From: a virus
DNA length: 46,271 nucleotides
Strand: one strand, 5' to 3'
Virus record (IMG/VR): IMGVR_UViG_3300037042_001023
Location: 1 to 46,271 of that record
Made by a program: the position numbers and the translations under genes
In this document: positions 9,925-46,271 of the stretch, in pieces
How positions within the stretch are numbered: the first letter of the stretch is position 1
Layout: the number at the start of each line of letters is the position of its first letter
The notes under the pieces: generated by a model
Told to the model about the DNA's origin: nothing
The model's database searches: none
What the model saw: the letters and a program-made list of their open reading frames with translations, nothing else

Positions 9925-10497
9925 ATGGCAAGTAATCAAATAACATTAGAAAGAAGTATAGAGATAAATTCTCTAGACTATTTATATCAATGTACTAAAT
10001 GTAATGAAGTAAAACCAAATAGTGAATATTCTATCAGCTTAAATAAAAGAGTAGAAAATAGTCTAGGAAGAGCTTTTGTATCTCAATGTAAATCCTGTAG
10101 AGCAAATTATAATTCTTCTAGAAAAGTTTTAGATAGAAAAAAAGAATTAGCTCCAATACAAAGAAATAAACATAGATTAAATGTAATTTTTTGGTCATCT
10201 AAACAAAATGCTAAAAAAAGAAATTTAGAACATAGCATAGACTTAGAATACATTAAAGAGTTATTTGAAATACAAAAAGGATTATGTTACTACACTGATA
10301 AAGAAATGTTTATTGATACAAGAGAAAAAGAAAATAATGAAGATTCTGTATCTTTAGATAGATTTGATTCTTCTAAAGGCTATATAAAAGGAAATATTGT
10401 ACTATGTAGATGGATAGTTAACAGAATGAAAAATGATATTAATTTCAAAGATTTTTTACAAATTATTTCTGAAATAAATAAAAAACATAATATATAA
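9925..10497 (+). CDS. Free-standing HNH-type endonuclease (probable homing endonuclease)
   Basis: 190 residues. An N-terminal zinc ribbon (C23-x2-C26 and C55-x2-C58) is followed by a basic helical linker and an HNH-type nuclease core (C121; VSLDRFDSSKGYIKGNIVLC at ~142-161; N166 and K169). In this subgroup an Asp in the SLDR motif takes the place of the first His. It begins three bases after the phosphoesterase stop and its TAA overlaps the next ATG (TAATG), so it is inserted with almost no extra sequence. The second HNH protein (20784-21428) has the same layout and ends. Such genes usually spread by cutting alleles that lack them; a structural role is unlikely. Confidence 0.8.
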   Translation: MASNQITLERSIEINSLDYLYQCTKCNEVKPNSEYSISLNKRVENSLGRAFVSQCKSCRANYNSSRKVLDRKKELAPIQRNKHRLNVIFWSSKQNAKKRNLEHSIDLEYIKELFEIQKGLCYYTDKEMFIDTREKENNEDSVSLDRFDSSKGYIKGNIVLCRWIVNRMKNDINFKDFLQIISEINKKHNI

Positions 10498-19648: not shown

Positions 19649-20778
19649 TGAGTGGTAAAGTAAAATGCACATGTGGATGGAGCTGGAACAAATCTGATTC
19701 TAGTAAGAAAGATATGTACATATGTCATGAATGTGGTAGAGATAATTCTAACAACATGAAGAATGGTGGTTGGTTAGATAGTTATGAAGATGGTGGAACA
19801 ATGCAAGAACACCAAGAGAATTATAATAATTCAGAAACATCTGTTCCTGAAGGATATGAAGGAGAAGGATATTCTATGAAAGGAAGAAACTATTCTCCTG
19901 CGTGGGGTGGACAATTTCAAATGGGTGGATTTGTCTATCCAGTTAACTATGTTCCTCAAGCACAAGAAGGAAAAGAATTAACTTTTCTACAACCAACTAG
20001 TGAGAAGTTACCAGAAGGATATGTTATTCCTTATAATACTCCTAGTAGTGAAAGAGCTATGTCTATAGGTGGAGAGAATGGAGAACCAGCTTATTTGATT
20101 CCTAGTTTTAAATATGGTAAACCATTAGATGATCCAATGGAAGAATTTAGAAAAACTGGTGAACATTTAGGTGGTCCATTTAAAACATGGCAAGAAGCTG
20201 ATAAGTGGGAGAATGAAACTAGACATCCAGCAGTTGAGAAAGGAGAAAACATAATGTTCCCTCAAGAACAATTTGCAATGGGTGGTTCTATTCCAGGAGC
20301 TGTAGGTTTCTCATATGCACGTACACAAGGAGCTGCTCCTAGTAATGGTCCTTATGCAAAGAAAACAATGGCTAGTGCACAGAATGGTAAAGAGATGCAA
20401 TACTATCAGAATGGATTAGATTTCAAACCTAAGAGTATTAGTAAGAATGGATCTTGGTTATCTAAATATGATGATGAAGAAGTTATTAAAGATGATAGAG
20501 GACAATGGGATCATCCAGGAAAGATAACAGAAATAGGTTCTAATGAAATAACAATGCAAGGAGTTCCTTATGATGTCCTTGGTATATCAGATACAGGAGA
20601 TACAAAACTAATGAAGCCAGGAAAGAATTATAAGTTTAAGGGTAAGAAGGTTACTGAATATCCTATGGCTCAGAATGGATTAAGACAAGAACAAAAAGGT
20701 TTGCAGAACTTAGATCAATTGACTAACTTTACAAATTATAATAAACCAACTATCGGTGGATGGTTAGATAATTATTGA
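19648..20778 (+). CDS. Cargo-region protein with N-terminal zinc ribbon and repeated 'NGGWLxxY' motif
   Basis: 376 residues. Residues 7-29 form a zinc ribbon (KCTCGWSW, then CHEC). The motif NGGWLDSY appears at 39-46, NGSWLSKY at 267-274 and GGWLDNY at the very C-terminus (370-376). The sequence in between is rich in Gly, Asn and Gln and of low complexity, typical of proteins packed in the capsid. A conserved-looking segment lies at ~286-340 (RGQWDHPGKITEIG, GVPYDVLGISDTGDTKL). Such short Trp motifs may be binding sites for the larger cargo proteins. It precedes the cargo block, and the 1063-aa protein follows after the inserted HNH gene. The stop is TGA, the only non-TAA stop among the complete genes. 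Confidence 0.55.
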   Translation: MSGKVKCTCGWSWNKSDSSKKDMYICHECGRDNSNNMKNGGWLDSYEDGGTMQEHQENYNNSETSVPEGYEGEGYSMKGRNYSPAWGGQFQMGGFVYPVNYVPQAQEGKELTFLQPTSEKLPEGYVIPYNTPSSERAMSIGGENGEPAYLIPSFKYGKPLDDPMEEFRKTGEHLGGPFKTWQEADKWENETRHPAVEKGENIMFPQEQFAMGGSIPGAVGFSYARTQGAAPSNGPYAKKTMASAQNGKEMQYYQNGLDFKPKSISKNGSWLSKYDDEEVIKDDRGQWDHPGKITEIGSNEITMQGVPYDVLGISDTGDTKLMKPGKNYKFKGKKVTEYPMAQNGLRQEQKGLQNLDQLTNFTNYNKPTIGGWLDNY

Positions 20779-20783
20779 GAATC

Positions 20784-21428
20784 ATGATAGAATTTAAAGT
20801 TTGTAAATTGTGTAAAAAAGAATTATCTATTAATAATTTTTGGAAGAATCCAAGTAATAAGGATGGTTATTTTGGAAAGTGTAAAGTTTGTGCAACTAAA
20901 ACAAAAGATATAAATGCTTTAAAGAAACAAAAATATTTAGAAGATAATCTTTGGACTTGCTCTACTTGTAACATTACACTACCATTAACTAAAGAAAATT
21001 TTCATAAAAGAAATGATTCTGATACAGGATTTCAACATAGATGTAAAAAGTGTTTAGAAAAAGATCCAACTAGAGTTAATAGATTAATTAAAAAAGATGA
21101 TTTAGATCTTTTTATTAAAGATAGATTTCATGGAGCAAGGAGTAGATCAATTAAAAAAGGTATAGAGTTTGAATTAACTCTAGAATATTTAAAAGATTTA
21201 TGGAACATTCAAAATGGTTTATGTGCAATAACCAAAATTAAAATGACACATACTATACTAGAAGGTAAATTAAAAACTAATTTAAGTATAGATAAAGTAA
21301 ACCCAGCATTAGGGTATACAAAAGATAATATTCAACTAGTATGTAACATTGTTAATGTTATGAAAAGTGATATGTCAATAGAAGATTTAATGTATTTTTG
21401 TAAACTAATAATTCAAGAAAATGACTAA
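20784..21428 (+). CDS. Free-standing HNH-type endonuclease with two zinc ribbons
   Basis: 214 residues from the ATG at 20784; a TTG nine bases earlier overlaps the previous stop and is less likely. Two zinc ribbons come first (C7-x2-C10 with C33-x2-C36; C59-x2-C62 with C87-x2-C90). A basic linker (KDRFHGARSRSIKKGI) precedes the nuclease core, which has C147, SIDKVNPALGYTKDNIQLVC at ~168-187, N191 and K194. The core matches that of the first HNH gene (9925-10497), with the same GY-x2-(D/G)NI-x-L-(V)C signature. It ends within the next gene (8-bp overlap, ATGACTAA). It is an independent insertion into the cargo block and, like the other, probably a homing endonuclease. Confidence 0.8.
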   Translation: MIEFKVCKLCKKELSINNFWKNPSNKDGYFGKCKVCATKTKDINALKKQKYLEDNLWTCSTCNITLPLTKENFHKRNDSDTGFQHRCKKCLEKDPTRVNRLIKKDDLDLFIKDRFHGARSRSIKKGIEFELTLEYLKDLWNIQNGLCAITKIKMTHTILEGKLKTNLSIDKVNPALGYTKDNIQLVCNIVNVMKSDMSIEDLMYFCKLIIQEND

Positions 21429-24630: not shown

Positions 24631-24661
24631 ATTACCAGAATTGATTATTAATTTTGGTAGT
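24631..24661. repeat. Inverted repeat over the -33 box upstream of the 878-aa cargo gene
   Basis: Positions 24631-24642 can pair with 24650-24661 (12 bp including two G-U pairs; core ACCAGAATT / AATTTTGGT) around a seven-base loop. No U-run follows, so it is not a normal terminator. The 3' arm contains the proposed -33 TTTG at 24653-24656, so it could be an operator, or an mRNA structure in read-through transcripts. Confidence 0.55.
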
Positions 24662-27331: not shown

Positions 27332-30300
27332 ATGCCAATTTTTGATAATGAGCTTTTAGGTAATCAATCTAATAGAGAATATAGTGGACCAGATGTTGAC
27401 ATTAGTTCTTCTGGAGAAGCATTTAGAGAAATAGATTCTACAATAGGATTGGATATTCCTGGTCAGTTTGATAAACCTTTTGAAGGTATTACTGCTGATC
27501 AGGCTAGAACTTTTAAAGGAGCATCCATGCCTATGAATGTTAATTCTCCTTTTAGTGTAGTCTCTAAAAGTGAACTTCTTGAAAATCAACGTTATCCATT
27601 ATATGAAAGAGGTATTAATCTTGAAAACGTATATGGATTACAACAATCTGGATTAGAACAATTAGGAAATGGTCTTATTAAAATGGGAGCACTTGCATTA
27701 GGTTCATTTGGGCAATCGTTTGCTACAATTCCTAATACAGCTAAAGCTCTTAAAAATCTTGATCTTGCAGACCTTTCAAATCCTAATGGATATGAATCTT
27801 CTATTGATACATGGATGAAGAATGTAGAAAACTACTTTCCAAACTATGTAACAAACTATGAAAAATCAAGAGGACTTGCTACAGCTATTCCTTTTACTTA
27901 TGGATCAGCAAACTTCTGGGGAGATAAAATTCTAAAGAATTCAGGATTTATGGTGGGGGCAATTTCAGGTGCTATTGTTCAAGATGCTATAATAGGTGCT
28001 GCTACAGAAGGAATTGGAGCTATTCCATTAGTTGGTGTACAACTTGGTAAAGCTTCTTTATATTTGAATAAGTTATTTGCAGGTACCAATAAGGTTGATA
28101 AAGTGCTAGATCTTGCAAGAGCTGCTGGTAAATCTGAGCAAACATTAATGAACATTGAAAGACTTGGTCAGCTTGCTGCTGCTACAAAATTAAGTAATGG
28201 ATTTAGATATGGAATGTCTGTATATGGATCTGCTAGAACTGAAGCAGCTATTGAATCAAGAGAATCATATAGAACAATAAAAGAACAACTTACAGAGCAA
28301 TACAGGTTAGATAACTTTGGTGAAGAACCTTCGCCAGAAGCTATTACACAAATAGAAGAATATGCTACAGATGCTATGAATACTAGATTTGGTATTAACA
28401 TGGCTCTTTTAACTGTGTCTAATGCTGTACAGTTTGATAATGTATTTAAATCATTTACAGGAGCACAAAAAGGAATTACATCTTCTGCATTAAAAGATTT
28501 TGGTAGTGCAGGTAAAGTGGGTCTTAAAGAAGGAACTCTTGATACATTTGAAAGAAAAGTTCCAGAAACATTTTCTGGTAAAGCTTGGGAGTTTGTAAAA
28601 CCAAAAGCAATTAATGTTTTTACAGAAGGGGTGTATGAAGAGGGTGGACAGTTTGCTACACAAATAGGTGTAGAAGATTATTACACTAGAAAATATAAGA
28701 ATAAAGAGAGTTGGGATTTTGTTAAAGAAGCAATGACTTCTACTACTAAAGGACTGGCTGAACAGTTTGGTTCTTCTGCAGGAATAGAGAGTATGGTGAT
28801 TGGTGGTATTACAGCTGCTATCACTGGACCTATTGCAGATAGAGTTACAGGTAAATCAAAAGCAGATACTCAAAGACTTAACACTACACTTAACCTATTG
28901 AATCAATATGGAATGACAGGTGTACTTTCTAATAAGTATGAAGATACATCAAGAGGTGTTGAGATAGGAAAACAGATGAATGATGCTGTTAATTCTGGAA
29001 ACATTTTTAAATATAAAAACTTAAAATCTGATATGTTCTTTGGATTTGTAAACTCAAGAATTCCAATTGGAATGCATGATGTTACAATAGAACAATTGAA
29101 CATGTTGAAAGATCTTCCTAAAGCAGAGTTTGAGAAAACATTTGGTATGGACTTCAGTAGTTCAAACAAAAGCACTGTGAATGAATATGTTAATGCTTTA
29201 ATAGATAAAGCTAACAACATTAATGATGTATCAACATCTATCAATTCAACTTTTAATAATCCTTACAATAGAATAATAGATCCTAAGACAGCTGATCAAA
29301 GAGTTGAAGCTTTGAAGTATGGTATGTTTGAGAACTGGAAAACAGATCTTGCAAACTTCTCTTATGTTCAACAAGATTCTGCTGATAGGATAGCAGAAAT
29401 ACAAACATCTATATCACAAGTAAATCCACTTCTTACAAATGATCTATTAACATTAACAAGTAGTGAGAATGGATTAAAAGAATTGAGTGAGTCTTATGAA
29501 CAAAAAGCAAATCAATTAAGTGAATCTCTTGCTAATTTATCTCCTGCTGAGAGAACAGCTAAACGTGATGAGATTAAAAAACTTAGAACTCTATCTGAGA
29601 AGATAAGTATTGCTTTAAATTCTAAAAATATTGATCCTAAGTTATTCAATGAGTTAATTAATTTTGAATTAGTTAATCAGGATTTTTCTCAACCTAACAC
29701 TTTAAGAATAGATGAAACATCAGGACTTACAACTTATGCTGAAGACTTAAATAAAATAGAAGCTAGAAAAAAAGGAGCTGCTGACAAGTTTGATTATCTT
29801 TCTACAGAAGAAGGGTTTAATAAATATTTTAAACAAGCAGAAGATATTGCTAATGAAGAAGTTTCTTTAGAAGATTTAAATAAAGGAACAGCACAACCTT
29901 CGTTTGTTAATGAAGATAAAGAAAAAGAAAAATTAGAAGTTGGTAGAGAGTATGAGGTGAGAGCTACAAAGAAAGCTTCTATCAAAAAGATTGCTGATGA
30001 TAGATATCAAGTAACATCTCCTGATGGAACTGTGTCTTTTCATAAGACAAGAAAAGAAGCTGTAGAGGAATCTAAAGACTTAACTGATGAGAACACTAAC
30101 CTATCTAAGGTGAAAGTGTTAGGATTGAATGATGATGGTACAGTGAAGGTGGAGGATGTTAATGGAGATATATTAAACATCGATCCTAAAAGACTTAGAG
30201 GATACAAAAGACTTGAAACAAACCAAGAGAAGTTACAAAAGAATAAAGAAGACATAGCTAGAGAACAAACAGATCTTGAACATAATTCAGGAACTATTGC

Positions 30301-33300
30301 TTCAGTGAGTTCAGAAGCGGCAGAGACTATTAAAGAATCACGTCTTCCAGATGCTTCAATATTATTTCTTTCTAGTTCATCAGCATCAGAAGAAGATAAT
30401 CCTACAGTAGCAGTTGCTCCATTTATTACAAACTCAAGAGAGTTTTTAAATAATGTTGCAGGTATGTCTAATAGATCTAAACTAAGATCTATATTAATTA
30501 CATCTAAACAAGCTGAAGGATTACAACTTGATGGAATAGTTCAGATGTCTTATGAGAAAGATCCTTCTACTAGTATTGATTCTATTGAAGAAGTTAATAA
30601 TATTAATTCTGGATGGGTTGCACAAGTATTTGTGGAACAAGATGTAGATGGTTTATTCTTTGTAGATAAAAACGGAAATAGAATTGGTAAAGTGGGTGAA
30701 GCAGGAACTGATCTTAATAAGATTATATTCCAAACAATGCGTACAACATCTTTATTTAATAGATCAGGACAACCTAGATATAGACAAGAACAAAAAGCTG
30801 AAGCTGAGGCTTACTCAAGAGCTTGGGGTGAATATAGAAAATCATTATTTGAAGCTGGAGCTACAGAGTTTCCTACATTTGAATTCTCTGTATCAAAAGG
30901 ACTTCCTATTGAATTAAGAGATGCTAATGGTCTTAAAGAAAAGAATCATGTTGGTGGTATATTAATTGATGAATCTCTTATTACTAACCAAGCAAACTTA
31001 ATTGTTATTCCTACAACAGGAACTATTGTTAATAGTCAAGGTGAGATACAAAAAACACCTGTTGGAGTTCCTTTATTACAATACGGAGATAATATTTCAT
31101 TCTTAAACAATAGAATGTTTAATGATAGAGAAGCAGCTGGTGTATATGAAGTGATTAAAAGACTTGCTGATGCTGCTGTAGAACAAGCTACCACAGGACA
31201 AAGAGTAACATTAAACAGACAGTTTACAACATTCTTACAGAATGTATTATATTGGAAGTCAAAAGATGAGACAACTTCTCCTAATCAAATACGTATTGAT
31301 ACTGAATCAATGAGTTTAAAACTTGGTAATAACAGTTACCCATTATCAGATATAACTCAATATGAAGCAGAAATAAAAGAACACTTAACTGAGAAAGCAT
31401 ATATCAGTCTTAATAATAAAACATTAACTGATTTTGCACAAGCTCCATTTGAGGAGTGGTACATTAATCAAGCTGGTGAGTTTGTATCTAGTAAATGGGC
31501 AAACTACCAAACATTCTTATTATCTAATAAATATCCTAGTGGTCAAGCTAGACCTATGGGTGATACTCCTTTGTCTACATCTATAGCTAAGCCTACTCCA
31601 GCAAAACCTTATTCTTTTAAACAAAGATATTCTACAATAGCAGAACCAGATAACTTCAATGTACAAGTGATTACACCTGTACAGAAAGCTAAAGAAGAAG
31701 CTCCTGCTGGAACAAATGTTTATCAATTAGGAAACTATGTAATTGGTAATAAAACACCAAATACATTCCCTCTTCAAAATGGTGATGTACAATTTACAGC
31801 AGAAGAAGATGCTGAAGGTAATTTTAATGTAGAGGTTGAGAGCAATGAAACAACTGCAAAACTTCTTGAAGATAAACCTACATTTGAAAAGATTAAAGGA
31901 GCACTAAAAGCAGCTAATAGATTTGATGCTTCTATTCCTTTAGAAGAAGAAGAGAAATATATTACAGATTATTTAGCTCTTAGAATTTCAGCAGAGTTAA
32001 ATAAATTAAAATCAGAAGCTCCTACACAAGTAGCTCCAGTAGCTGAAGAAAAGACAACTGATAAACCAGTTATTAATATTTATTGGGGTAGTCCTGAGAG
32101 TTCTACTAATACTAAAGTATTATCTAATTTGGCCCCACGTAAATTTATTTATCAAGATAAAGAATATGGAAGTGTAGAACATGCTTATCAAACTTTAAAA
32201 TCTGGAAGTTTTGATCAAGTTACATATGATAAATATGTAAAAGCAGGTGGTTATGGAACTAAGATAAGAGGTAAAGCAGTAACTAAAGGATTTGATAATT
32301 TACAATTAATGAAAGATTTAGTTGTAGAATCATTTAAACAAAATCCAAATCAAGCTGCATTACTTTTAAATTATAGTAATTTTACCCATACTACTAATGA
32401 AATAATAGACAAGGCATTTTTAGATGGTATAAAACTTGCTCAAAATAATGCAGAACAAGCTGCATTAGAAACTCCTGTAGAAAAACCTACCACTCCTGTT
32501 CAGAAGAAACCAGGTGGTGATTTCAGAAAGGTGGGACTTAATGAGAATGAAAGAATGACAGAGGCTGAACTAGAATTGTTCAAAGAATGGCATGCAGAAA
32601 ATGTTCCTAACATTCCTTTTGAAGTGTTAGAAGATCTTATTGATACATATGATGGAGAGAAAGCTTGGGGTGTATTTGAAAATGGTATAGCTAAGTTTGT
32701 TAGAGGTGGATTAAGAGCTACAGAATATCATGAGATATTTGAAGGTATATATAAAGGTATGTTGTCTCAAGAAGAACAACAAGCTTTACTAGATGAGTTT
32801 AAATCTAAGTCTGGTACATTCACAGATAGAGCTTCTGGTAAGAAGATAAACTATGCAGATGCTACAGATCTACAAGCTAAAGAAAGAATAGCTGATGACT
32901 TCTCTGATTATAGAAAAGGTAAATTACCTGCTAGATCATTAGGAGAAAGAGTTCGTAATTTATTCAAAAGAATAATGGACTTCTTCAAATCATTTGTATC
33001 TAAACCATCTTTAAAAGAAAGTTTATTCAAATCAATTAATGAAGGTAAGTTCAAAGAAAGAACATTATCTGAAGAATCAATTAATCCATTCTCTGAATAT
33101 AGTAGAGTGTCACAACTATCTGCACAACAAGCTAATAACTTTGTACAAGATATGACAGCAAGAGCTGCTGGTATATTATTTAGAGAAGGAGATAAGAGTC
33201 TTTTATTTAATCCTGAAAGAATCACTGGAACAGAAATGTTTGGTAAGATTGAGGATATGCTTATTGAAGAAGGAAGAAGACAATTACTAAGTGATAAAAC

Positions 33301-36300
33301 ATTTGAAGATCTTAAACAACAAGTAAGAGATCAATTGCGTACAAGAGGTATCAACTTCAATGATGAAGAAGTACAAAACATTAATGATGAAGAAGCAAAT
33401 AAAAATGACTATGCTCCTGAACCATTTAAGTTAGATACTAAGAAGAATGCTTCACCTGCTGTTAAGTTTTTATGTTCCACATTAATTGAAAGAGAAGCTA
33501 CTAATCAAGAAAGTGCCATTACATTAAGCACTCCTCTTCAGTCTAAGCTTTCTAAAATGGTTATTGATGGTAATGAGATTGAAGGATATAAACTTATGAA
33601 CTTCAGTAGAGTGTTTGCTACATTATTAGATAAACTTTCTAATACATCTAGTGTTGGTGCATTCACAAATAAATTATTCAACCTAGCACAAGATGATGCT
33701 AATTATGTTAGTGTATTCCAAAAGGTGGGTGGTAAAGATAAAGTGGTTCCATTTAGTAAGTTCAATGATAATGACTGGAGATTGTTTATTGATTTCATAC
33801 AAACATTTGCTAGACAAAAACCAAATGCATTAATACAATATAAATCTGCTGATAGTGTTCACACAGGAGCTGCTAATTTATTTACAGCTACTCAACAAAC
33901 AGAAAAAGAATGGATGACAAACATTCAAACTTTAGCTAAAGGAGATGGAACTATTGTTAAATATACAAACAATAAATATGTAATAGATCAAGATGCACTT
34001 AAGGCTATGCCTATAAGAAAACCTAAACCAATGATAGCAATGTTAAATGCTATTGGTGTTACGTTTGATTATGATACATATGTTAAGTTAAAAGAAAACG
34101 ATAAACTTAAGTTTGCTAAACAAGTAGAAAGTATATATGGTTACTTTGGAAGTAATAATGATTTGATGAGCATCTCTGGTAAAACATTAGATGTTGGTGG
34201 ACCATTATCTACATTGGCTGAACTATATAACAAAGTGAACAATCCTTCACAAGAGAGTACATACTTTGGTGTAGAGAATCAACGTATTGGTGCTTTCTCT
34301 GAAAACAATACACCATCTGTATTTGAGAATGAGTTTAATGAAACAGCAAACATTGTTGAGTTAAAACAAAAAAGAACAGAACTTAATGATACATTCTCTA
34401 CAGGTAGTCAAGTGTTAAAGAAAGGTGGATTGTTCTATGATAAAAATGGAAACAAAATAAAAGACTTCAAAGTTTCTGTTATACAAGGAGAAGATAATCA
34501 AGATACTGATAAAGGAACCTCTACATCTAAATTAACAATAGGTGATAGATTTACAATGGAGATTAATCAAAACCTTAATGGTAACTATTATATTCTTATC
34601 CCTGCAGATGGATCTACAGAATGGATGATGAACCTTGGTAACAATGTTTCATTTGATTCTATAGCAAAAAACTCTTATAAAGAAATCAATTCTATATTTA
34701 AAGGATATTTAATGGATGACATTAACTTAGCTTTAGATTATTCAAATAGAGAGAAGCTATTAAATGTTGGTGGTAAAGCAAAAGAGTTACGTTTCTTTAA
34801 AGATATCCTTGCACCTAAAGATTTAGAAGCAATCAATGAAATGATTGAGGATGGAAGAACTCTTGAAGATATTACAGCATATGTAAATGAAAACATATCT
34901 GATATTAATAATTCTGTAAAAGAATTTATTAGTAATATGACTGTAGGAACAATGGATATTCTTAAAGCAAATGATAAAATTAATCCAATAGGAGAAGATA
35001 CATATGCTTATCAAGATCTTGATGATAACTTCCTTAAAGCTGAATCATTAAATAAAAATAACTTATCTAATAAGGATGTAAATAATATTCTTACATATGC
35101 TAATGTTAATTACATTATTGCTAATATAGAATTCCATAAAATATTATTTGGTGATCCATATCAATTTGCTGTTAAGAAAAATGGTGCATTAGATGAAACT
35201 AAACGTATCAAGTCTTTCCTATCTCCAAGAAGAACAACATTTGATAGTGCTGAATACAATACATACTTAAATAATAATGTAAACAATGCTAATGGTATTC
35301 AGTTAAAAGAAAATGATCCTGGATATCATTTACATAAATCTCACACTGATACAATCACTGTGAAAGATATTAAAGTGGCAGGTAGTCTTTCTGCTATCAA
35401 TGAATTGTATGGAGATACAAATGAAGCAGATGCTGTTTCATGGTTAATGGATACAACATACAGAGAGATTAAACTTAAGAATAGACAATGGGATTTACAA
35501 GGTGTAGAAGAAAAATGGTTCCAATGGGAAATGGCTTACACAAGACAAAATCTTCCTGGGTATGAATATACTAGTGAAGCTTTAAGAACTAGTGATACTA
35601 AGTTAATGGAAACTGATCGTCCTAAATATACAACAGAGATATTAAAACCTATTGTATCTGGAAACAAAGCAAACAAGAATAACTTTGATCTTGTATTAGA
35701 CAAGTTCTCTCAAGTGCCTATCTACTATAGTATGGTGAAAGGAACTAACCTTGAGAAGCTATATGTTCAAATGAAGAAACAAGGGATAGGTTATGCTATT
35801 GTTGAATCAGGTAGAAAGGTAGGAGCACAAGAGTTACACAGTCTTTATAATGGAGATGGTTCATTTAATAATGAAGCTTTCTCTGATGCATCTATTGTGC
35901 AGGTTCCTTGGAAAGCTTATGGTATTCAAGTGGAGACAACTACTACTGATAATAAATCACAAACTACTAGAGGATCTCAGATTACTAAGATTGCAAGTAT
36001 AGATTTATTTGACAATGGTGTTCCAACAAGTCCTAGAGCTGCAGAAGAATACAAACGTAATACAGATCTTCTTAATGCAATGCATCAAAATGCATACAAT
36101 GAACTTCTTAACAATTTAGGATTGGAAGATCTTAATAATGGTTTTGTAATGAAGAATGGTAGAAACGTATCTGAAACATTGATGAGAGAGATGATGAGAA
36201 GAGAAGTTTCTAATAATACAAAACAAACCATCAAGCTTAATACTGAAGACCAGTTCATGATTCCATTTGAAGCTTCTCCTTCTTATGTACAGATTAGAAG

Positions 36301-39300
36301 TATTCTTTATTCAATGATTGATAAAGCTATTGGTTCTCCTAAAGTGAGTGGTGGATCACATGTACAAATGCCTGCAACAATGCTTGAGTCTATGACTAAA
36401 GGTAGAAGTATTGCTATGAAGAACAAGGAAGGTGTTTGGGAGAAGATAACTAAAGAGAAGTATGAAACATTAACTAGTGAAGAAAAAGCTGGTGTAATGC
36501 TTACAGATGATAGTCTTAAGTTCTATACTAAAGAACAACCATATTGTGAAATATTACTTCCTCACTGGTTTAAAGATAAATTCAAAAACAAATTCAAAAC
36601 AGATAAAGAGTTATTAAAATATCTAAATGGTACAGAAGAAGGAAGATCAATTCTCTCTGGTATTGGATTTAGAATTCCTACACAAGCTCTTTCTTCTGCT
36701 GAGGTGTTTAGAGTGAAAGGGTTCCTTCCATCATATATGGGAGCTACAGTGGTAGTACCTTCAGAAATCACTACTAAATCTGGATCGGATTTTGATATTG
36801 ATAAGTTAAATATGTATCTTAAGTCTGTATACGCAGATAGAACAGGTAACATTAAACTTGTTAAGTTACAGGGTAATGAAGAGAATACAAAAGAATTCTT
36901 TGGTAAAGTGTTTGATGACACCCTTGGTGTTAAACAAATGAAGAAAGCTGATCTTCTAGAAGCATTAGATATTGTTGTTTATGGATTAGAAGATCCTAAA
37001 GGATTACTTAATGTATATGGAGATTATATCAAATCTAAAGAAGAGCAATATGAAAACCCATATGAGTTCAGAGATTTAATTGAGAAAGATCTTAACAAGC
37101 TGACAGACATAAACTTACAAGCTGAATTACGTTCTGAGTATGTAAAAGATATGTACAAGAAAGCTTTAGAGAATGAATACTATGATAGTCTTGAAAAACT
37201 TCTTACACTTCCTGAAAATTTTGAAAGACTTATAACTCCTATAGATGATGCAGGATTAAAAGATGTTGCTGAAGAACTTGATGGACTAAGAGGAATGGAT
37301 GAAAATAAAATTCCAAATAGAATTCTTAATAGAAACTATATGACCAATTTAAGAAACTCATTCCTTATGGGTAAACGATGGGTTGGTGTTGTAGCTGTAA
37401 ATATTACAAATCTTTCATTAAGACAGAAGATACAATCATATGTTGATCCTGCTAAGTTCTCTCTTCTATCTGAAGAAGATCAAGAACTATTAGGTGATGG
37501 AAGCGTTGTGTTAAAACATAACACTACAAAGGTGAATGGTGTAGATAGAATATCTTTAGGTGGTACAAGAACTGCTGATGGATCTAATCAATTAATATCT
37601 AATAGACTTTCTGGATATGCAACTGCTGTAGTGGATGTAGCTAAGGATGACTTTATCACACGTATAATTCAATCAAATCTTGTTATTGGAACATTCATGT
37701 TCTTAGAGAATATTGGTGCAGGACAACAGTCTATATTCTTTTTAAACCAACCAATCATTTCAGAATACTTAAGAATTGTAAATGCTAATAATTCTTCTAA
37801 TCTTTTTTATGAAGATAACATTAATTATGCTAAATCATTATTCCCTTCAACAAAAGAAGAGATGGACAATGCTGTTATAAATGTAGATGGATTAAAAGGT
37901 AATATATCTAAATATGCTACTAGTAAATTAACTCCAAAAGAGAATGGTGAACAACAAGCTATTCTTAAAGAGTTCTTGAAATATGCTAAGATGGCTGAAT
38001 TTAATTTTGATTTCACACAAGCTACAAACTATGATACAAGTAGATTTGGATCTGGAGATATGTTTGCAAGAAAACAATGGCAAACAGAAAAAGCTAATGA
38101 TGTAAACATTATTTCTTCTGCAAAAGAAATTCTTGATAATACATTCCTTGGTAACCAATCAAAACTTCTTTCTGCATCTATGCAAGCAATGGGAGCTATA
38201 TTCAAATTAGAGCAAGACCATCTTAGAATTATTACAGAAGATATAATGAAGACCTATGGTAAGAATAAATATCTTAGTATAGATAACTTTAATAAGATAT
38301 CTAACAAAGCTAAAATGGCATTCTTAGATTACATTATACAAACTAAAACAGGAGTGAATGGTAAAACAGAAGATCTTCTTGTTAATGCAAAAACATCTGT
38401 TGCTAACAGATTAGAAGTTGCTAAAGAGAAATATCCTGAAATACAATTGTTAAAAGACCTACAAGTGGTACCTTCTGTTAGAGAGAACGGAGCTAAGAGT
38501 GTTGAACTTAGAGCTAACATCAAAGATGCGTATGATGAAGATCTTTATGTAGATATGATGAGAGAACTTAGAGATTATAATGCTGAGACAAAAGTGTTAT
38601 ATGAACAACTTATATCATTAGCTATCTTACAAGGAAGTTATCAATCAGCTATATCTATTAAGAATATTATTCCTATTGAAGACTATGCTGATATAGTGGC
38701 TCCTGTTGTAAACTCTATTTCTTCTGATGAAACATTACAAGCATTTGTTGATGGAATGTTCCAAAGAAATAACTTTGATGATCCATTCATTATGCCTAGA
38801 GTTACACCTTTCTTTAAACCGAAGAGTGGAAATGTAGCTCAAGCAATGGCACAAATGATTGATCCAAGTGTTCAGATTGGTTACTACTCTTCTTCTTTCC
38901 CAGAAATTAAATCATTAAATCTTCAAGCAATAGATAGACAAGTGTTAGTGATTGGAGATAAGTATAATCAAAAAGCTATGAACAGTGACTATGTTGCTGT
39001 ACCTAGAGTGGTGAAATTGAAAAGTGGTGTAAGAATTGATGTGCTAACTGGTAACACAGTTACTGCTGCTAACTACGCTGCTAGAAAGAAAAAAGGTGAC
39101 TACTCATTAAATGATGTACTTGGATATAAAAGAGTGTTCGTAGCTCCAGGAGTACCATTAAGAATACCAGATAAAAAAGGATTTCCACAATCTGTATATA
39201 AACTAATCAATCTTTATGGAGATGGTAATAGAGCTACAGAGAACTACACAGACTTCAGACCTTCTGTAATTGACAATGGTACATTGAAAACAACAAGAGA

Positions 39301-40192
39301 GTTAAATGATGTAGATATTGTTAGCTTTTATGGTGGTGAAATTGTAGAAAATAATGTATCTTTACCAACAGAAGTAAGTAAACCTACACAAATGGCTGGA
39401 CAACCTAAAGGAATAAAAGTTAAAGAAGGAATCTATGTGAATCAAGAAGCTCTTACAAAAGATGAACAACTTGAATTATTTGATTATATAAAACCATTTT
39501 TAGAAGAACAAGCTGCTAAAACTAATAAAGGAGCATCTGCTAGTAAAATGATTGGATTAGGATTGAGATGGGATTATAAATCAAATAATCCTGGAAAACA
39601 ATCTATGAACATTCCAGATGTTATAAATCAAGGAAACAAAACTAAATATGGATACTATGACACTTCTATTAACAATCAACCTTTAGCACCTATCACTCCT
39701 CGTTTTAGAGAGTTGATGCAAAAAGCTACAGGTGTAGATATGACTAATTATGATGGAGCTATTATTAATCTTTATGAACCTACTAGTTTTATTAGTTCCC
39801 ATAATGATGTAGATGAAAGTAGATCAGCAATTGGGTATCCTGTAATAGGAATTAATATTGGTGGTACAGGAAACTTCTCTATTGAATCAAGAGATGGTGC
39901 TCCTAAACAATTAAATCTTCAACCAGGTTCAGGATATGTATTTGGTGTGGATGGTGTGAATAGAGAAGTTTATCATAGAACTTTTCCTAAACCTCAAGAT
40001 AGTTTCTTACCAGAATTAACAACTAATTTAGATGGTAAGACTTATGAGCCAGGTTCATATAGAGTAACAGTTACAATGAGAAGAGTGATGCCTCTTGAAC
40101 CAGGTATGCCTACTAAACCAGCTATTATATCTACACAAGAAAACAAACCAGATGGGCTTCCACCTATTGATAGAACTAATGAAACATGTTAA
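27332..40192 (+). CDS. Giant virion RNA polymerase fused to NADAR-like and AlkB-like domains
   Basis: 4286 residues. The polymerase is identified by SGSDFDIDKLN, with D3153, D3155 and D3157 as the metal-binding triad, preceded by GFRIPTQALSSAEVFRV (compare R-x-P-T in cellular beta' subunits); Cellulophaga phage phi14:2 gp66 (about 2180 aa) has the same DFDID motif. Other regions: an N-terminal internal-virion-type segment with hydrophobic helices (~110-240); an SH3/KOW-like pair (~870-970); a NADAR-like domain (~1582-1706: YWG, VLSNLAP, EHAYQ 1616-1620); a zincin-like helix with a degenerate H1800-E-I-F-E; and a C-terminal AlkB-like 2-oxoglutarate dioxygenase (~4066-4260: H4157-x-D4159, H4215, R4244-x5-R4250). 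Twice the size of known single-chain virion polymerases. Inferred role: injected with DNA to transcribe early genes. Domain limits are approximate. Confidence 0.85.
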   Translation: MPIFDNELLGNQSNREYSGPDVDISSSGEAFREIDSTIGLDIPGQFDKPFEGITADQARTFKGASMPMNVNSPFSVVSKSELLENQRYPLYERGINLENVYGLQQSGLEQLGNGLIKMGALALGSFGQSFATIPNTAKALKNLDLADLSNPNGYESSIDTWMKNVENYFPNYVTNYEKSRGLATAIPFTYGSANFWGDKILKNSGFMVGAISGAIVQDAIIGAATEGIGAIPLVGVQLGKASLYLNKLFAGTNKVDKVLDLARAAGKSEQTLMNIERLGQLAAATKLSNGFRYGMSVYGSARTEAAIESRESYRTIKEQLTEQYRLDNFGEEPSPEAITQIEEYATDAMNTRFGINMALLTVSNAVQFDNVFKSFTGAQKGITSSALKDFGSAGKVGLKEGTLDTFERKVPETFSGKAWEFVKPKAINVFTEGVYEEGGQFATQIGVEDYYTRKYKNKESWDFVKEAMTSTTKGLAEQFGSSAGIESMVIGGITAAITGPIADRVTGKSKADTQRLNTTLNLLNQYGMTGVLSNKYEDTSRGVEIGKQMNDAVNSGNIFKYKNLKSDMFFGFVNSRIPIGMHDVTIEQLNMLKDLPKAEFEKTFGMDFSSSNKSTVNEYVNALIDKANNINDVSTSINSTFNNPYNRIIDPKTADQRVEALKYGMFENWKTDLANFSYVQQDSADRIAEIQTSISQVNPLLTNDLLTLTSSENGLKELSESYEQKANQLSESLANLSPAERTAKRDEIKKLRTLSEKISIALNSKNIDPKLFNELINFELVNQDFSQPNTLRIDETSGLTTYAEDLNKIEARKKGAADKFDYLSTEEGFNKYFKQAEDIANEEVSLEDLNKGTAQPSFVNEDKEKEKLEVGREYEVRATKKASIKKIADDRYQVTSPDGTVSFHKTRKEAVEESKDLTDENTNLSKVKVLGLNDDGTVKVEDVNGDILNIDPKRLRGYKRLETNQEKLQKNKEDIAREQTDLEHNSGTIASVSSEAAETIKESRLPDASILFLSSSSASEEDNPTVAVAPFITNSREFLNNVAGMSNRSKLRSILITSKQAEGLQLDGIVQMSYEKDPSTSIDSIEEVNNINSGWVAQVFVEQDVDGLFFVDKNGNRIGKVGEAGTDLNKIIFQTMRTTSLFNRSGQPRYRQEQKAEAEAYSRAWGEYRKSLFEAGATEFPTFEFSVSKGLPIELRDANGLKEKNHVGGILIDESLITNQANLIVIPTTGTIVNSQGEIQKTPVGVPLLQYGDNISFLNNRMFNDREAAGVYEVIKRLADAAVEQATTGQRVTLNRQFTTFLQNVLYWKSKDETTSPNQIRIDTESMSLKLGNNSYPLSDITQYEAEIKEHLTEKAYISLNNKTLTDFAQAPFEEWYINQAGEFVSSKWANYQTFLLSNKYPSGQARPMGDTPLSTSIAKPTPAKPYSFKQRYSTIAEPDNFNVQVITPVQKAKEEAPAGTNVYQLGNYVIGNKTPNTFPLQNGDVQFTAEEDAEGNFNVEVESNETTAKLLEDKPTFEKIKGALKAANRFDASIPLEEEEKYITDYLALRISAELNKLKSEAPTQVAPVAEEKTTDKPVINIYWGSPESSTNTKVLSNLAPRKFIYQDKEYGSVEHAYQTLKSGSFDQVTYDKYVKAGGYGTKIRGKAVTKGFDNLQLMKDLVVESFKQNPNQAALLLNYSNFTHTTNEIIDKAFLDGIKLAQNNAEQAALETPVEKPTTPVQKKPGGDFRKVGLNENERMTEAELELFKEWHAENVPNIPFEVLEDLIDTYDGEKAWGVFENGIAKFVRGGLRATEYHEIFEGIYKGMLSQEEQQALLDEFKSKSGTFTDRASGKKINYADATDLQAKERIADDFSDYRKGKLPARSLGERVRNLFKRIMDFFKSFVSKPSLKESLFKSINEGKFKERTLSEESINPFSEYSRVSQLSAQQANNFVQDMTARAAGILFREGDKSLLFNPERITGTEMFGKIEDMLIEEGRRQLLSDKTFEDLKQQVRDQLRTRGINFNDEEVQNINDEEANKNDYAPEPFKLDTKKNASPAVKFLCSTLIEREATNQESAITLSTPLQSKLSKMVIDGNEIEGYKLMNFSRVFATLLDKLSNTSSVGAFTNKLFNLAQDDANYVSVFQKVGGKDKVVPFSKFNDNDWRLFIDFIQTFARQKPNALIQYKSADSVHTGAANLFTATQQTEKEWMTNIQTLAKGDGTIVKYTNNKYVIDQDALKAMPIRKPKPMIAMLNAIGVTFDYDTYVKLKENDKLKFAKQVESIYGYFGSNNDLMSISGKTLDVGGPLSTLAELYNKVNNPSQESTYFGVENQRIGAFSENNTPSVFENEFNETANIVELKQKRTELNDTFSTGSQVLKKGGLFYDKNGNKIKDFKVSVIQGEDNQDTDKGTSTSKLTIGDRFTMEINQNLNGNYYILIPADGSTEWMMNLGNNVSFDSIAKNSYKEINSIFKGYLMDDINLALDYSNREKLLNVGGKAKELRFFKDILAPKDLEAINEMIEDGRTLEDITAYVNENISDINNSVKEFISNMTVGTMDILKANDKINPIGEDTYAYQDLDDNFLKAESLNKNNLSNKDVNNILTYANVNYIIANIEFHKILFGDPYQFAVKKNGALDETKRIKSFLSPRRTTFDSAEYNTYLNNNVNNANGIQLKENDPGYHLHKSHTDTITVKDIKVAGSLSAINELYGDTNEADAVSWLMDTTYREIKLKNRQWDLQGVEEKWFQWEMAYTRQNLPGYEYTSEALRTSDTKLMETDRPKYTTEILKPIVSGNKANKNNFDLVLDKFSQVPIYYSMVKGTNLEKLYVQMKKQGIGYAIVESGRKVGAQELHSLYNGDGSFNNEAFSDASIVQVPWKAYGIQVETTTTDNKSQTTRGSQITKIASIDLFDNGVPTSPRAAEEYKRNTDLLNAMHQNAYNELLNNLGLEDLNNGFVMKNGRNVSETLMREMMRREVSNNTKQTIKLNTEDQFMIPFEASPSYVQIRSILYSMIDKAIGSPKVSGGSHVQMPATMLESMTKGRSIAMKNKEGVWEKITKEKYETLTSEEKAGVMLTDDSLKFYTKEQPYCEILLPHWFKDKFKNKFKTDKELLKYLNGTEEGRSILSGIGFRIPTQALSSAEVFRVKGFLPSYMGATVVVPSEITTKSGSDFDIDKLNMYLKSVYADRTGNIKLVKLQGNEENTKEFFGKVFDDTLGVKQMKKADLLEALDIVVYGLEDPKGLLNVYGDYIKSKEEQYENPYEFRDLIEKDLNKLTDINLQAELRSEYVKDMYKKALENEYYDSLEKLLTLPENFERLITPIDDAGLKDVAEELDGLRGMDENKIPNRILNRNYMTNLRNSFLMGKRWVGVVAVNITNLSLRQKIQSYVDPAKFSLLSEEDQELLGDGSVVLKHNTTKVNGVDRISLGGTRTADGSNQLISNRLSGYATAVVDVAKDDFITRIIQSNLVIGTFMFLENIGAGQQSIFFLNQPIISEYLRIVNANNSSNLFYEDNINYAKSLFPSTKEEMDNAVINVDGLKGNISKYATSKLTPKENGEQQAILKEFLKYAKMAEFNFDFTQATNYDTSRFGSGDMFARKQWQTEKANDVNIISSAKEILDNTFLGNQSKLLSASMQAMGAIFKLEQDHLRIITEDIMKTYGKNKYLSIDNFNKISNKAKMAFLDYIIQTKTGVNGKTEDLLVNAKTSVANRLEVAKEKYPEIQLLKDLQVVPSVRENGAKSVELRANIKDAYDEDLYVDMMRELRDYNAETKVLYEQLISLAILQGSYQSAISIKNIIPIEDYADIVAPVVNSISSDETLQAFVDGMFQRNNFDDPFIMPRVTPFFKPKSGNVAQAMAQMIDPSVQIGYYSSSFPEIKSLNLQAIDRQVLVIGDKYNQKAMNSDYVAVPRVVKLKSGVRIDVLTGNTVTAANYAARKKKGDYSLNDVLGYKRVFVAPGVPLRIPDKKGFPQSVYKLINLYGDGNRATENYTDFRPSVIDNGTLKTTRELNDVDIVSFYGGEIVENNVSLPTEVSKPTQMAGQPKGIKVKEGIYVNQEALTKDEQLELFDYIKPFLEEQAAKTNKGASASKMIGLGLRWDYKSNNPGKQSMNIPDVINQGNKTKYGYYDTSINNQPLAPITPRFRELMQKATGVDMTNYDGAIINLYEPTSFISSHNDVDESRSAIGYPVIGINIGGTGNFSIESRDGAPKQLNLQPGSGYVFGVDGVNREVYHRTFPKPQDSFLPELTTNLDGKTYEPGSYRVTVTMRRVMPLEPGMPTKPAIISTQENKPDGLPPIDRTNETC
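32075..32449 (+). other. NADAR-like domain inside the virion polymerase
   Basis: Residues ~1582-1706 carry the family's YWG start, LSNLAP, SVEHAYQTLK and LMKDLVVESFKQNP. Family members act as N-glycosidases on riboflavin precursors (YbiA) or remove ADP-ribose from nucleic acid. The usual C-terminal Trp/Arg signature is weak (IIDKAFLDGIKLA), so activity is uncertain. Confidence 0.7.
39527..40114 (+). other. AlkB-like Fe(II)/2-oxoglutarate dioxygenase domain at the polymerase C-terminus
   Basis: Residues ~4066-4261. The motif order is that of AlkB: N-x-Y-x-P before H-x-D (NLYEPTSFISSHND; H4157, D4159), then GSGYVFGVDG, a distal His (H4215, VYHRTFP) and the 2-oxoglutarate-binding R-x5-R (R4244 and R4250, YRVTVTMRR). 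All residues needed for Fe(II) and co-substrate binding are present, so an active enzyme is likely. Substrate could be alkylated DNA or RNA. Confidence 0.85.
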
Positions 40193-45631: not shown

Positions 45632-46271
45632 ATGAGTGTAATCTGTGCAGCTAATCCTTGCCCAATCATACTAAGTTCATCCTGTGTATTTTACGAAGGA
45701 CCTAACTTGGTGTGTACTGGTATATATACTAATGAAACCCTTGAATCTGTAATACAAAAAATTAATGCTGCACTATGTTCTGGTGCTGGTGCTGATGGAA
45801 CTAGTGGTACTTCTGGTACCAGTGGAACGTCAGGTACCACAGGAACTAGTGGAACATCAGCCACTTCAGGCACTTCTGGTACCACAGGTACTAGTGGAAG
45901 TGCTGGAACATCAGGTTCTTCTGCTACAAGTGGAACAACAGGTAGTAGTGGTAGTTCAGGGAGTAGTGGTTCATCAGGAAGCTCAGGAAGTTCTGCCACA
46001 AGTGGAACCTCTGGAAGTACAGGTACCTCAGGTACATCAGCTACAAGCGGAACAGCTGGTACTGCTGGAAGTTCTGGTACCACTGGATCTTCTGGTAGCT
46101 CAGGAACAACTGGCACCTCAGGATCTTCAGGTACTACTGGGACCAGTGGAACATCTGGTACAGGTGGAACAAGTGGTACATCAGGATTACAGGGTGATCT
46201 TTATAGAACAGTCTCTACAGATTGTTTTACATTAGGTAACTCAGGAACACTTACTGTTGACACAGGATTGG
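45632..46271 (+). CDS. Collagen-like fibre with anchor module (partial, runs off the right edge)
   Basis: The ATG at 45632 opens a frame that stays open to the window end (213 residues visible). Residues 1-50 are the anchor module (CVFYEGPNLVCTGI, then LESVIQKINAALC). Residues 56-184 are 43 successive Gly-x-y triplets, nearly all GTS, GSS or GTT, so a collagen-like triple helix; four triplets carry Ala for Gly (ATS). A new domain starts at GLQGDLYRTVSTDCFTLG, which is the usual transition from a collagen-like shaft to a head domain. ORFs in other frames over the repeat (such as 45765-46235 on + and 45691-46116 on -) are shadows. Likely a trimeric fibre. Confidence 0.85.
   Translation, partial: MSVICAANPCPIILSSSCVFYEGPNLVCTGIYTNETLESVIQKINAALCSGAGADGTSGTSGTSGTSGTTGTSGTSATSGTSGTTGTSGSAGTSGSSATSGTTGSSGSSGSSGSSGSSGSSATSGTSGSTGTSGTSATSGTAGTAGSSGTTGSSGSSGTTGTSGSSGTTGTSGTSGTGGTSGTSGLQGDLYRTVSTDCFTLGNSGTLTVDTGL
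45797..46183 (+). repeat. Collagen-like Gly-x-y coding repeat
   Basis: Nine-base periodic repeat coding 43 triplets with mixed synonymous codons (GGT, GGA, GGC, GGG; ACT, ACA, ACC, ACG; AGT, TCA, TCT and others). Ala replaces Gly at triplets 8, 15, 23 and 28. Codon diversity argues against recent slippage. Confidence 0.9.

Follow-up and report, generated by a model that had tools for sequence, protein, structure and literature searches.

The NADAR domain and the AlkB-type 2OG-Fe(II) dioxygenase domain that are joined to a crAss-like virion RNA polymerase in the DNA analyzed here belong to a wider set of exchangeable cargo domains found in hypervariable slots of this polymerase family. The DNA is a 46,271-bp virus record (IMGVR_UViG_3300037042_001023), the whole of which is referred to below as the window. 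Its polymerase chain combines both folds with largely kept catalytic residues, the slots that hold them differ in length and content among relatives, slot contents are swapped between closely related phages, and the AlkB-type domain is under purifying selection. We consider it likely that the crAss-like virion polymerase also serves to deliver effector enzymes that can be exchanged. Within this explanation, we are highly confident that the cargo is modular and lean toward a role in pre-emptive counter-defense; that the cargo acts on the polymerase's own template is put forward only tentatively.

A giant chain built around a polymerase core

The plus strand of the window carries one uninterrupted frame whose single product comprises a crAss-like polymerase core, a NADAR domain, and an AlkB-type 2OG-Fe(II) dioxygenase (Table 1). 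A first-pass annotation of the sequence had already placed the DFDID motif in the same 4286-residue chain as a NADAR-like and a C-terminal AlkB-like domain, and this arrangement is confirmed here. By sequence search, the core matches gp66 of Cellulophaga phage phi14:2 (25.5% identity, E 8e-14), whose record is annotated as 'Catalytic RNA polymerase subunit'. As in phi14:2 gp66 and the crAss-like virion RNA polymerases, the homologous core contains GSDFDID (residues 3151–3157) and belongs to a block of giant adjacent genes, wherein an N terminus resembling g067 and a core resembling g066 are followed by a 1649-residue ORF. Unlike in the window, g067 and g066 are separate genes in phi14:2, and no NADAR or AlkB match was found there. 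Because both of these genes are matched within the window chain, the chain is a fusion of two neighboring virion genes. A blastp comparison of the 1649-residue ORF with phi14:2 g065 gave no match. Assignment of the window to the Crassvirales rests on this polymerase block, as the window is a fragment in which no terminase, portal, or major capsid gene was identified.

Table 1. Features of the giant polymerase ORF and its surroundings in the window
Feature	Position	Strand	Residues, basis, or remarks
Polyvalent crAss-like virion RNA polymerase, single ORF of 4286 aa	27332..40192	+	ORF, phi14:2 gp66 match, profiles
N-terminal region, partly homologous to phi14:2 g067	27332..32050	+	Residues 1–1573; g067 is a separate virion gene in phi14:2
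NADAR domain, slot 1	32063..32431	+	Residues 1578–1700; where the g067-like part joins the g066-like part
Slot 1, hypervariable in length	32132..32521	+	Anchors at residues 1601 and 1730; 16–502 aa in relatives
HEIFE motif, consensus HE(I/V/L)x(E/H)	32729..32743	+	Residues 1800–1804, just after slot 1
Polymerase core used for profiling	35612..37999	+	Residues 2761–3556
DFDID catalytic motif	36788..36802	+	Residues 3153–3157, kept in 43/43 aligned relatives
Slot 2, hypervariable C terminus	39374..40189	+	Residues 4015 to end; ~10–1257 aa past the last core anchor in relatives
AlkB-type 2OG-Fe(II) dioxygenase, slot 2	39377..40117	+	Residues 4016–4262; Pfam, AlphaFold2, Foldseek
Left copy of the 8-bp direct repeat CTACACAA that delimits the AlkB cassette	39384..39391	+	Sequence reading, nucleotide homology blocks
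Right copy of 8-bp direct repeat CTACACAA	40131..40138	+	Sequence reading; end of the L005 homology block
Next giant ORF, 1649 aa	40196..45145	+	Judged by position alone, in the place of phi14:2 g065 (RNA polymerase associated protein)

Nothing was found in favor of an assembly chimera or a frameshift that joined separate genes, a possibility that the first-pass annotation had itself raised, although both halves occur as separate genes in phi14:2. This possibility is refuted by independent relatives that carry the same junctions: contig L039 is colinear with the window at 90.5% nucleotide identity over most of the gene, and in several independent contigs the AlkB-type domain comes straight after the core. 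We therefore assign this possibility a negligible probability.

The HE(I/V/L)x(E/H) motif is present in nearly all of 43 relatives and takes the form HExxH in some. No Pfam match to a zincin-like metallopeptidase was obtained at this site; judged by its motif, the region is metallopeptidase-like and may act as a peptidase to free the cargo.

Other similarities were noted in and around the window. One protein of a cyanophage, Leptolyngbya phage Lbo-JY46 (L174), shares the N-terminal part of the window chain (~24% over ~740 aa, E 1e-46), and the gene preceding it also matches the window ORF at 24641. The window ends in a repeat-rich tail-fiber/collagen-like ORF (45786–46271) that is open at the record end and has many partial copies in L038. 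Two endonuclease VII/HNH-like genes, possibly homing endonucleases, lie among the virion genes (9925–10497 and 20775–21428).

Identity of the AlkB-type and NADAR domains

The AlkB fold proposed by the first-pass annotation is borne out by three methods that agree: a Pfam match to 2OG-FeII_Oxy_2 (E 3e-15, 57.3 bits versus a cut-off of 31.2), an AlphaFold2 model (pLDDT 92, pTM 0.89), and a Foldseek search with this model, whose top matches are E. coli AlkB (E 2.5e-12). The accompanying claim that every metal and 2-oxoglutarate residue is present holds for HxD...H and both arginines (H4157, D4159, H4215, R4244, and R4250), but the arginine motif reads RxTxxxR, with Thr in place of the Asn of RxNxxxR. 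Thus, the domain shares its fold, HxD..H, and two arginines with E. coli AlkB and OsALKBH1, and differs from them in its ~20% identity, in this substitution, and in being fused C-terminally to a polymerase. Its identity as an AlkB domain is secure, and demethylase activity is predicted from the sequence and the model.

Every AlkB relative that was detected on an adequate contig sits within a giant ORF. The idea that this AlkB is a gene of cells or of common phages was rejected: tblastn returned 0 matches in 50,697 named phage records, and no relative was confirmed in GTDB genome contigs by a pattern-based search, which is a weak negative. Neither the window AlkB nor the window NADAR type has a match among named phage records.

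For the NADAR domain, the window sequence alone scores 16.9 bits against Pfam, below the cut-off of 35.1, which is a detection threshold and not a biological defining feature; slot NADARs of other phages score 45 to 60 bits, above the cut-off. Because the single-sequence match is weak, we used a family profile of 51 members instead, which matches YbiA at 2e-13 and the NADAR structure 8bau at 5e-10. The AlphaFold2 model (pLDDT 97, pTM 0.90) finds YbiA and both solved NADARs as its best three Foldseek matches. Profile, model, and Foldseek search thereby establish the identity of the domain by transitivity, and they uphold the earlier NADAR call, the limits of which (~1582–1706) are shifted slightly in Table 1.

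E1616 and K1623 are the counterparts of the Glu and Lys that PMC11543638 defines as catalytic in NADARs; they are 7 residues apart and invariant in 51/51 sequences. The third catalytic residue is D/E or, in the phage gp30.3 variant (PMC11125620), a His; H1686 falls in the 'at least 90%' conservation class and is placed provisionally in this role by alignment. The window domain is of a subfamily that lacks the WG motif, and this absence, together with the score below the Pfam cut-off, leaves its activity likely rather than certain. Fold and catalytic Glu/Lys are shared with T4 gp30.3-type phage NADARs and DarT-NADAR antitoxins, and H1686 is the putative equivalent of the His reported in the last strand of phage types. 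However, phage NADARs, including those of the T4 gp30.3 type, are typically standalone (PMC9503650), whereas the window NADAR is WG-less and embedded in a virion polymerase.

Hypervariable slots and the exchange of their contents

We aligned 43 full-length relatives and examined 245 variable spans. The SD of length is highest at the C terminus (159 and 136 aa) and between residues 1601 and 1730 (120 aa), and these places define two slots; the value is 42 aa between residues 747 and 804 and at most ~24 aa elsewhere. The span at residues 747–804 (~29570–29743) is a third, smaller length-variable place (1–142 aa) in the N-terminal part. Among relatives, the slots contain NADAR, AlkB, SF1 helicase, SLOG, DUF7831, unidentified domains, or almost nothing, and SLOG and a DUF4326-like domain (the latter identified by eye) co-occur with NADAR. 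Pfam searches with the slot 1 inserts of L038, L058, L077, and L055 yielded nothing convincing. The L038 insert (L038:2141-3031, 297 aa) is a composite, in that its first half resembles slot 1 of L052 (88%) and its second half that of L055 (73%).

Module order also varies. NADAR is found before or after the core, AlkB is found after it or, in L014, before it, and the order is core-AlkB-NADAR-helicase in L007 and L060. No other locus examined shows the arrangement of the window, NADAR-core-AlkB. When 80 loci were fetched by the core alone, as best core matches rather than as a random sample, 12 ORFs carried at least one of three profiled modules. The survey of related polymerases that the first-pass annotation had called for thus finds NADAR and AlkB in the slots of relatives, and it extends to named phages. 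In the human gut phage cr126_1 (NC_055884, L172:13854-21062), a DUF1768-annotated protein matches the polymerase core, and this catalytic RNA polymerase subunit carries NADAR near its N terminus (residues 51–201, Pfam 51.6 bits). NADAR follows the core in cr130_1 and lies in the C-terminal part of the polymerase in cr131_1.

Several pairs of related phages capture the swaps. L023 and L159 are 98.4 to 98.9% identical in nucleotide sequence over 18 kb and differ in slot 2, where AlkB in the former stands against NADAR plus a divergent AlkB in the latter, with the left breakpoint at the linker GPTQP. The middle of the NADAR is replaced between L161 and L167 (97.7–98.6%), and the NADAR type is replaced between L170 and L134 (~83–88%). 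L039, the close relative of the window, has no AlkB at all and carries an unrelated insert of ~297 aa in slot 1 instead of the window NADAR. In other pairs, nucleotide similarity is confined to the cargo: to AlkB for L017 and L018 (93%) and for L005 and the window (86%, with the L005 block spanning 39384–40138), and to NADAR for L121 and the window (79%).

Substitution patterns were compared at fourfold sites, where identity is 83 to 89% in AlkB versus 53 to 64% in the central core when the same pairs are compared (Fisher p 1e-3 to 7e-8) and, relative to L096, 90% in NADAR versus 54% in the core (p 1e-5). A tree that unites the NADARs of the window's polymerase clade is rejected (AU test, p ~3e-57), and the descent of NADAR is thus at odds with that of the polymerase. 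In most groups the AlkB tree follows the core tree, indicating that AlkB was for the most part inherited along with the core and at times lost or replaced. Free AlkB exchange between distant polymerases is tempered by this congruence, and exchange is instead demonstrated case by case.

A pentapeptide linker, TQPST, recurs between modules in C-terminal slots (e.g., L018, L030, L031, and L159). TQPS occurs 27 times in giant ORFs, versus 3.6 expected, and 0 times in other ORFs; 26 of these occurrences lie after the core. Identical DNA, ACTCAACCATCTACT, encodes 13 of 22 TQPS(T/A) sites, which might represent a recombination tract or a cleavage site.

Such variability might reflect neutral protein mosaicism, in which illegitimate recombination into tolerant linkers leaves domains that persist without benefit. 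The slots are low-constraint linkers, and the AlkB cassette is bounded by the 8-bp direct repeat, as this reading would have it. Nevertheless, distant AlkB domains retain ~77% amino acid identity although their fourfold sites are saturated, which reveals strong purifying selection on function, and the same enzyme classes have been recruited repeatedly, with NADARs of two types. We regard neutral persistence as very improbable.

The domains might also be binding or regulatory accessories of the polymerase with little or no catalysis. The missing WG motif of the window NADAR fits this idea, as does the finding that domains fused to the N4 virion polymerase can serve packaging (PMC5512222). Against it, the E/K(/H) residues of NADAR and the HxD..H..R residues of AlkB are kept in alignments across divergent members, and near-identical polymerases lack these domains or carry others, which implies that the polymerase can do without them. 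An accessory role is therefore improbable, and we favor cargo enzymes that are carried rather than required by the polymerase.

Probable delivery and possible action of the cargo

The premise of the first-pass annotation that polymerases of this family are packaged is well supported: phi14:2 g065 to g068 are annotated from MS/MS proteomics, and the RNA polymerase proteins gp47/49/50 of phiCrAss001 were detected in virions (PMC10172136). In the model of the latter study, the polymerase proteins are probably kept inside the capsid and leave it ahead of the DNA, partly unfolded. Because the family is packaged in virions, we infer that the window cargo is delivered with the polymerase before phage gene expression, and we consider this inference sound.

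The proposed mechanism is as follows. The polymerase and its g067-like N-terminal partner, joined in one chain, accept effector domains in frame mainly at two slots, one where both parts meet and one at the C terminus, with T/Q/P/S-rich flexible linkers joining the domains; in the window these slots hold a phage-type NADAR and an AlkB-type dioxygenase, respectively. By analogy with the family, the chain would be packaged and would leave the capsid together with the DNA or ahead of it, and slot enzymes would reach the cytoplasm with the polymerase and could undo host modifications in the first minutes. NADAR may take ADP-ribose off guanine in nucleic acid or off soluble ADP-ribose signals, and AlkB may strip DNA or RNA of methyl or alkyl groups, in either alkylation repair or the erasure of methyl marks. 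Slot swapping would track differing host defenses.

Alternatively, the injected enzymes could act on host molecules or signals rather than on phage DNA, with NADAR directed at soluble ADPr immune signals and AlkB at host methyl marks or RNA. Phage NADARs have been argued to target mainly soluble ADPr derivatives (PMC9503650), methyl-mark resetting has been suggested for phage AlkB, and SLOG, NADAR, and DUF4326 have been linked in NAD+ networks (PMC7824862), which matches the presence of SLOG and the DUF4326-like domain with NADAR in the slots. However, T4-type phage NADARs hydrolyze guanine-ADPr on DNA in vitro (PMC11125620), and fusion to a DNA-bound polymerase would favor a nucleic-acid substrate. 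We judge action on host molecules to be unlikely, though worth serious consideration. The most specific form of the delivery proposal is a modular injection platform on which swappable demodifying enzymes (de-ADP-ribosylases, dealkylases, and helicases) restore the incoming genome during first transcription, with turnover so fast that 98%-identical phages differ mainly there; we offer it as a possibility that falls short of even odds.

According to the first-pass annotation, a polymerase carrying its own template-cleaning domains is not known to have been described. As a general statement this is only partly right, since polyvalent proteins that join metallopeptidase, ADP-ribosyltransferase, lysozyme, and RNase domains to N4-like virion polymerases are known (Iyer et al. 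2017, PMC5512222). Those proteins resemble the window chain in fusing conflict-effector domains to a giant injected polymerase, delivery of the window chain being deduced from its family. In contrast, the N4-like polymerase is an unrelated single-subunit enzyme, its effectors are metallopeptidase, ART, lysozyme, and PBECR RNase, and neither AlkB nor NADAR appears in the text of that paper. The narrower claim holds within the literature searched, which was covered in part and contained no description of a crAss-like polymerase with AlkB or NADAR. Domain shuffling in phage receptor-binding proteins, endolysins, and replication proteins (PMC10684548) likewise involves in-frame exchange between phages, but the exchange here occurs in a giant virion polymerase, and crAss phages are unmentioned there. 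Effectors on an injected virion polymerase are thus already known, and, within the same partial coverage, no precedent emerged for this polymerase family in that role, for demodifying enzymes as its cargo, or for their exchange at slots.

These findings bear on phages of broad relevance. In many human gut viromes crAss-like phages are the dominant group, and little explanation exists for their giant polymerase proteins. Should the slots hold active counter-defense enzymes, the virion would bring a pre-loaded, lineage-specific toolkit into the cell before any gene is read. The slot contents of near-identical phages would, if the enzymes are active, provide a direct map of the host defenses that matter. 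Because the NADAR-polymerase fusion is present in named gut phages, these ideas are testable with human-associated members.
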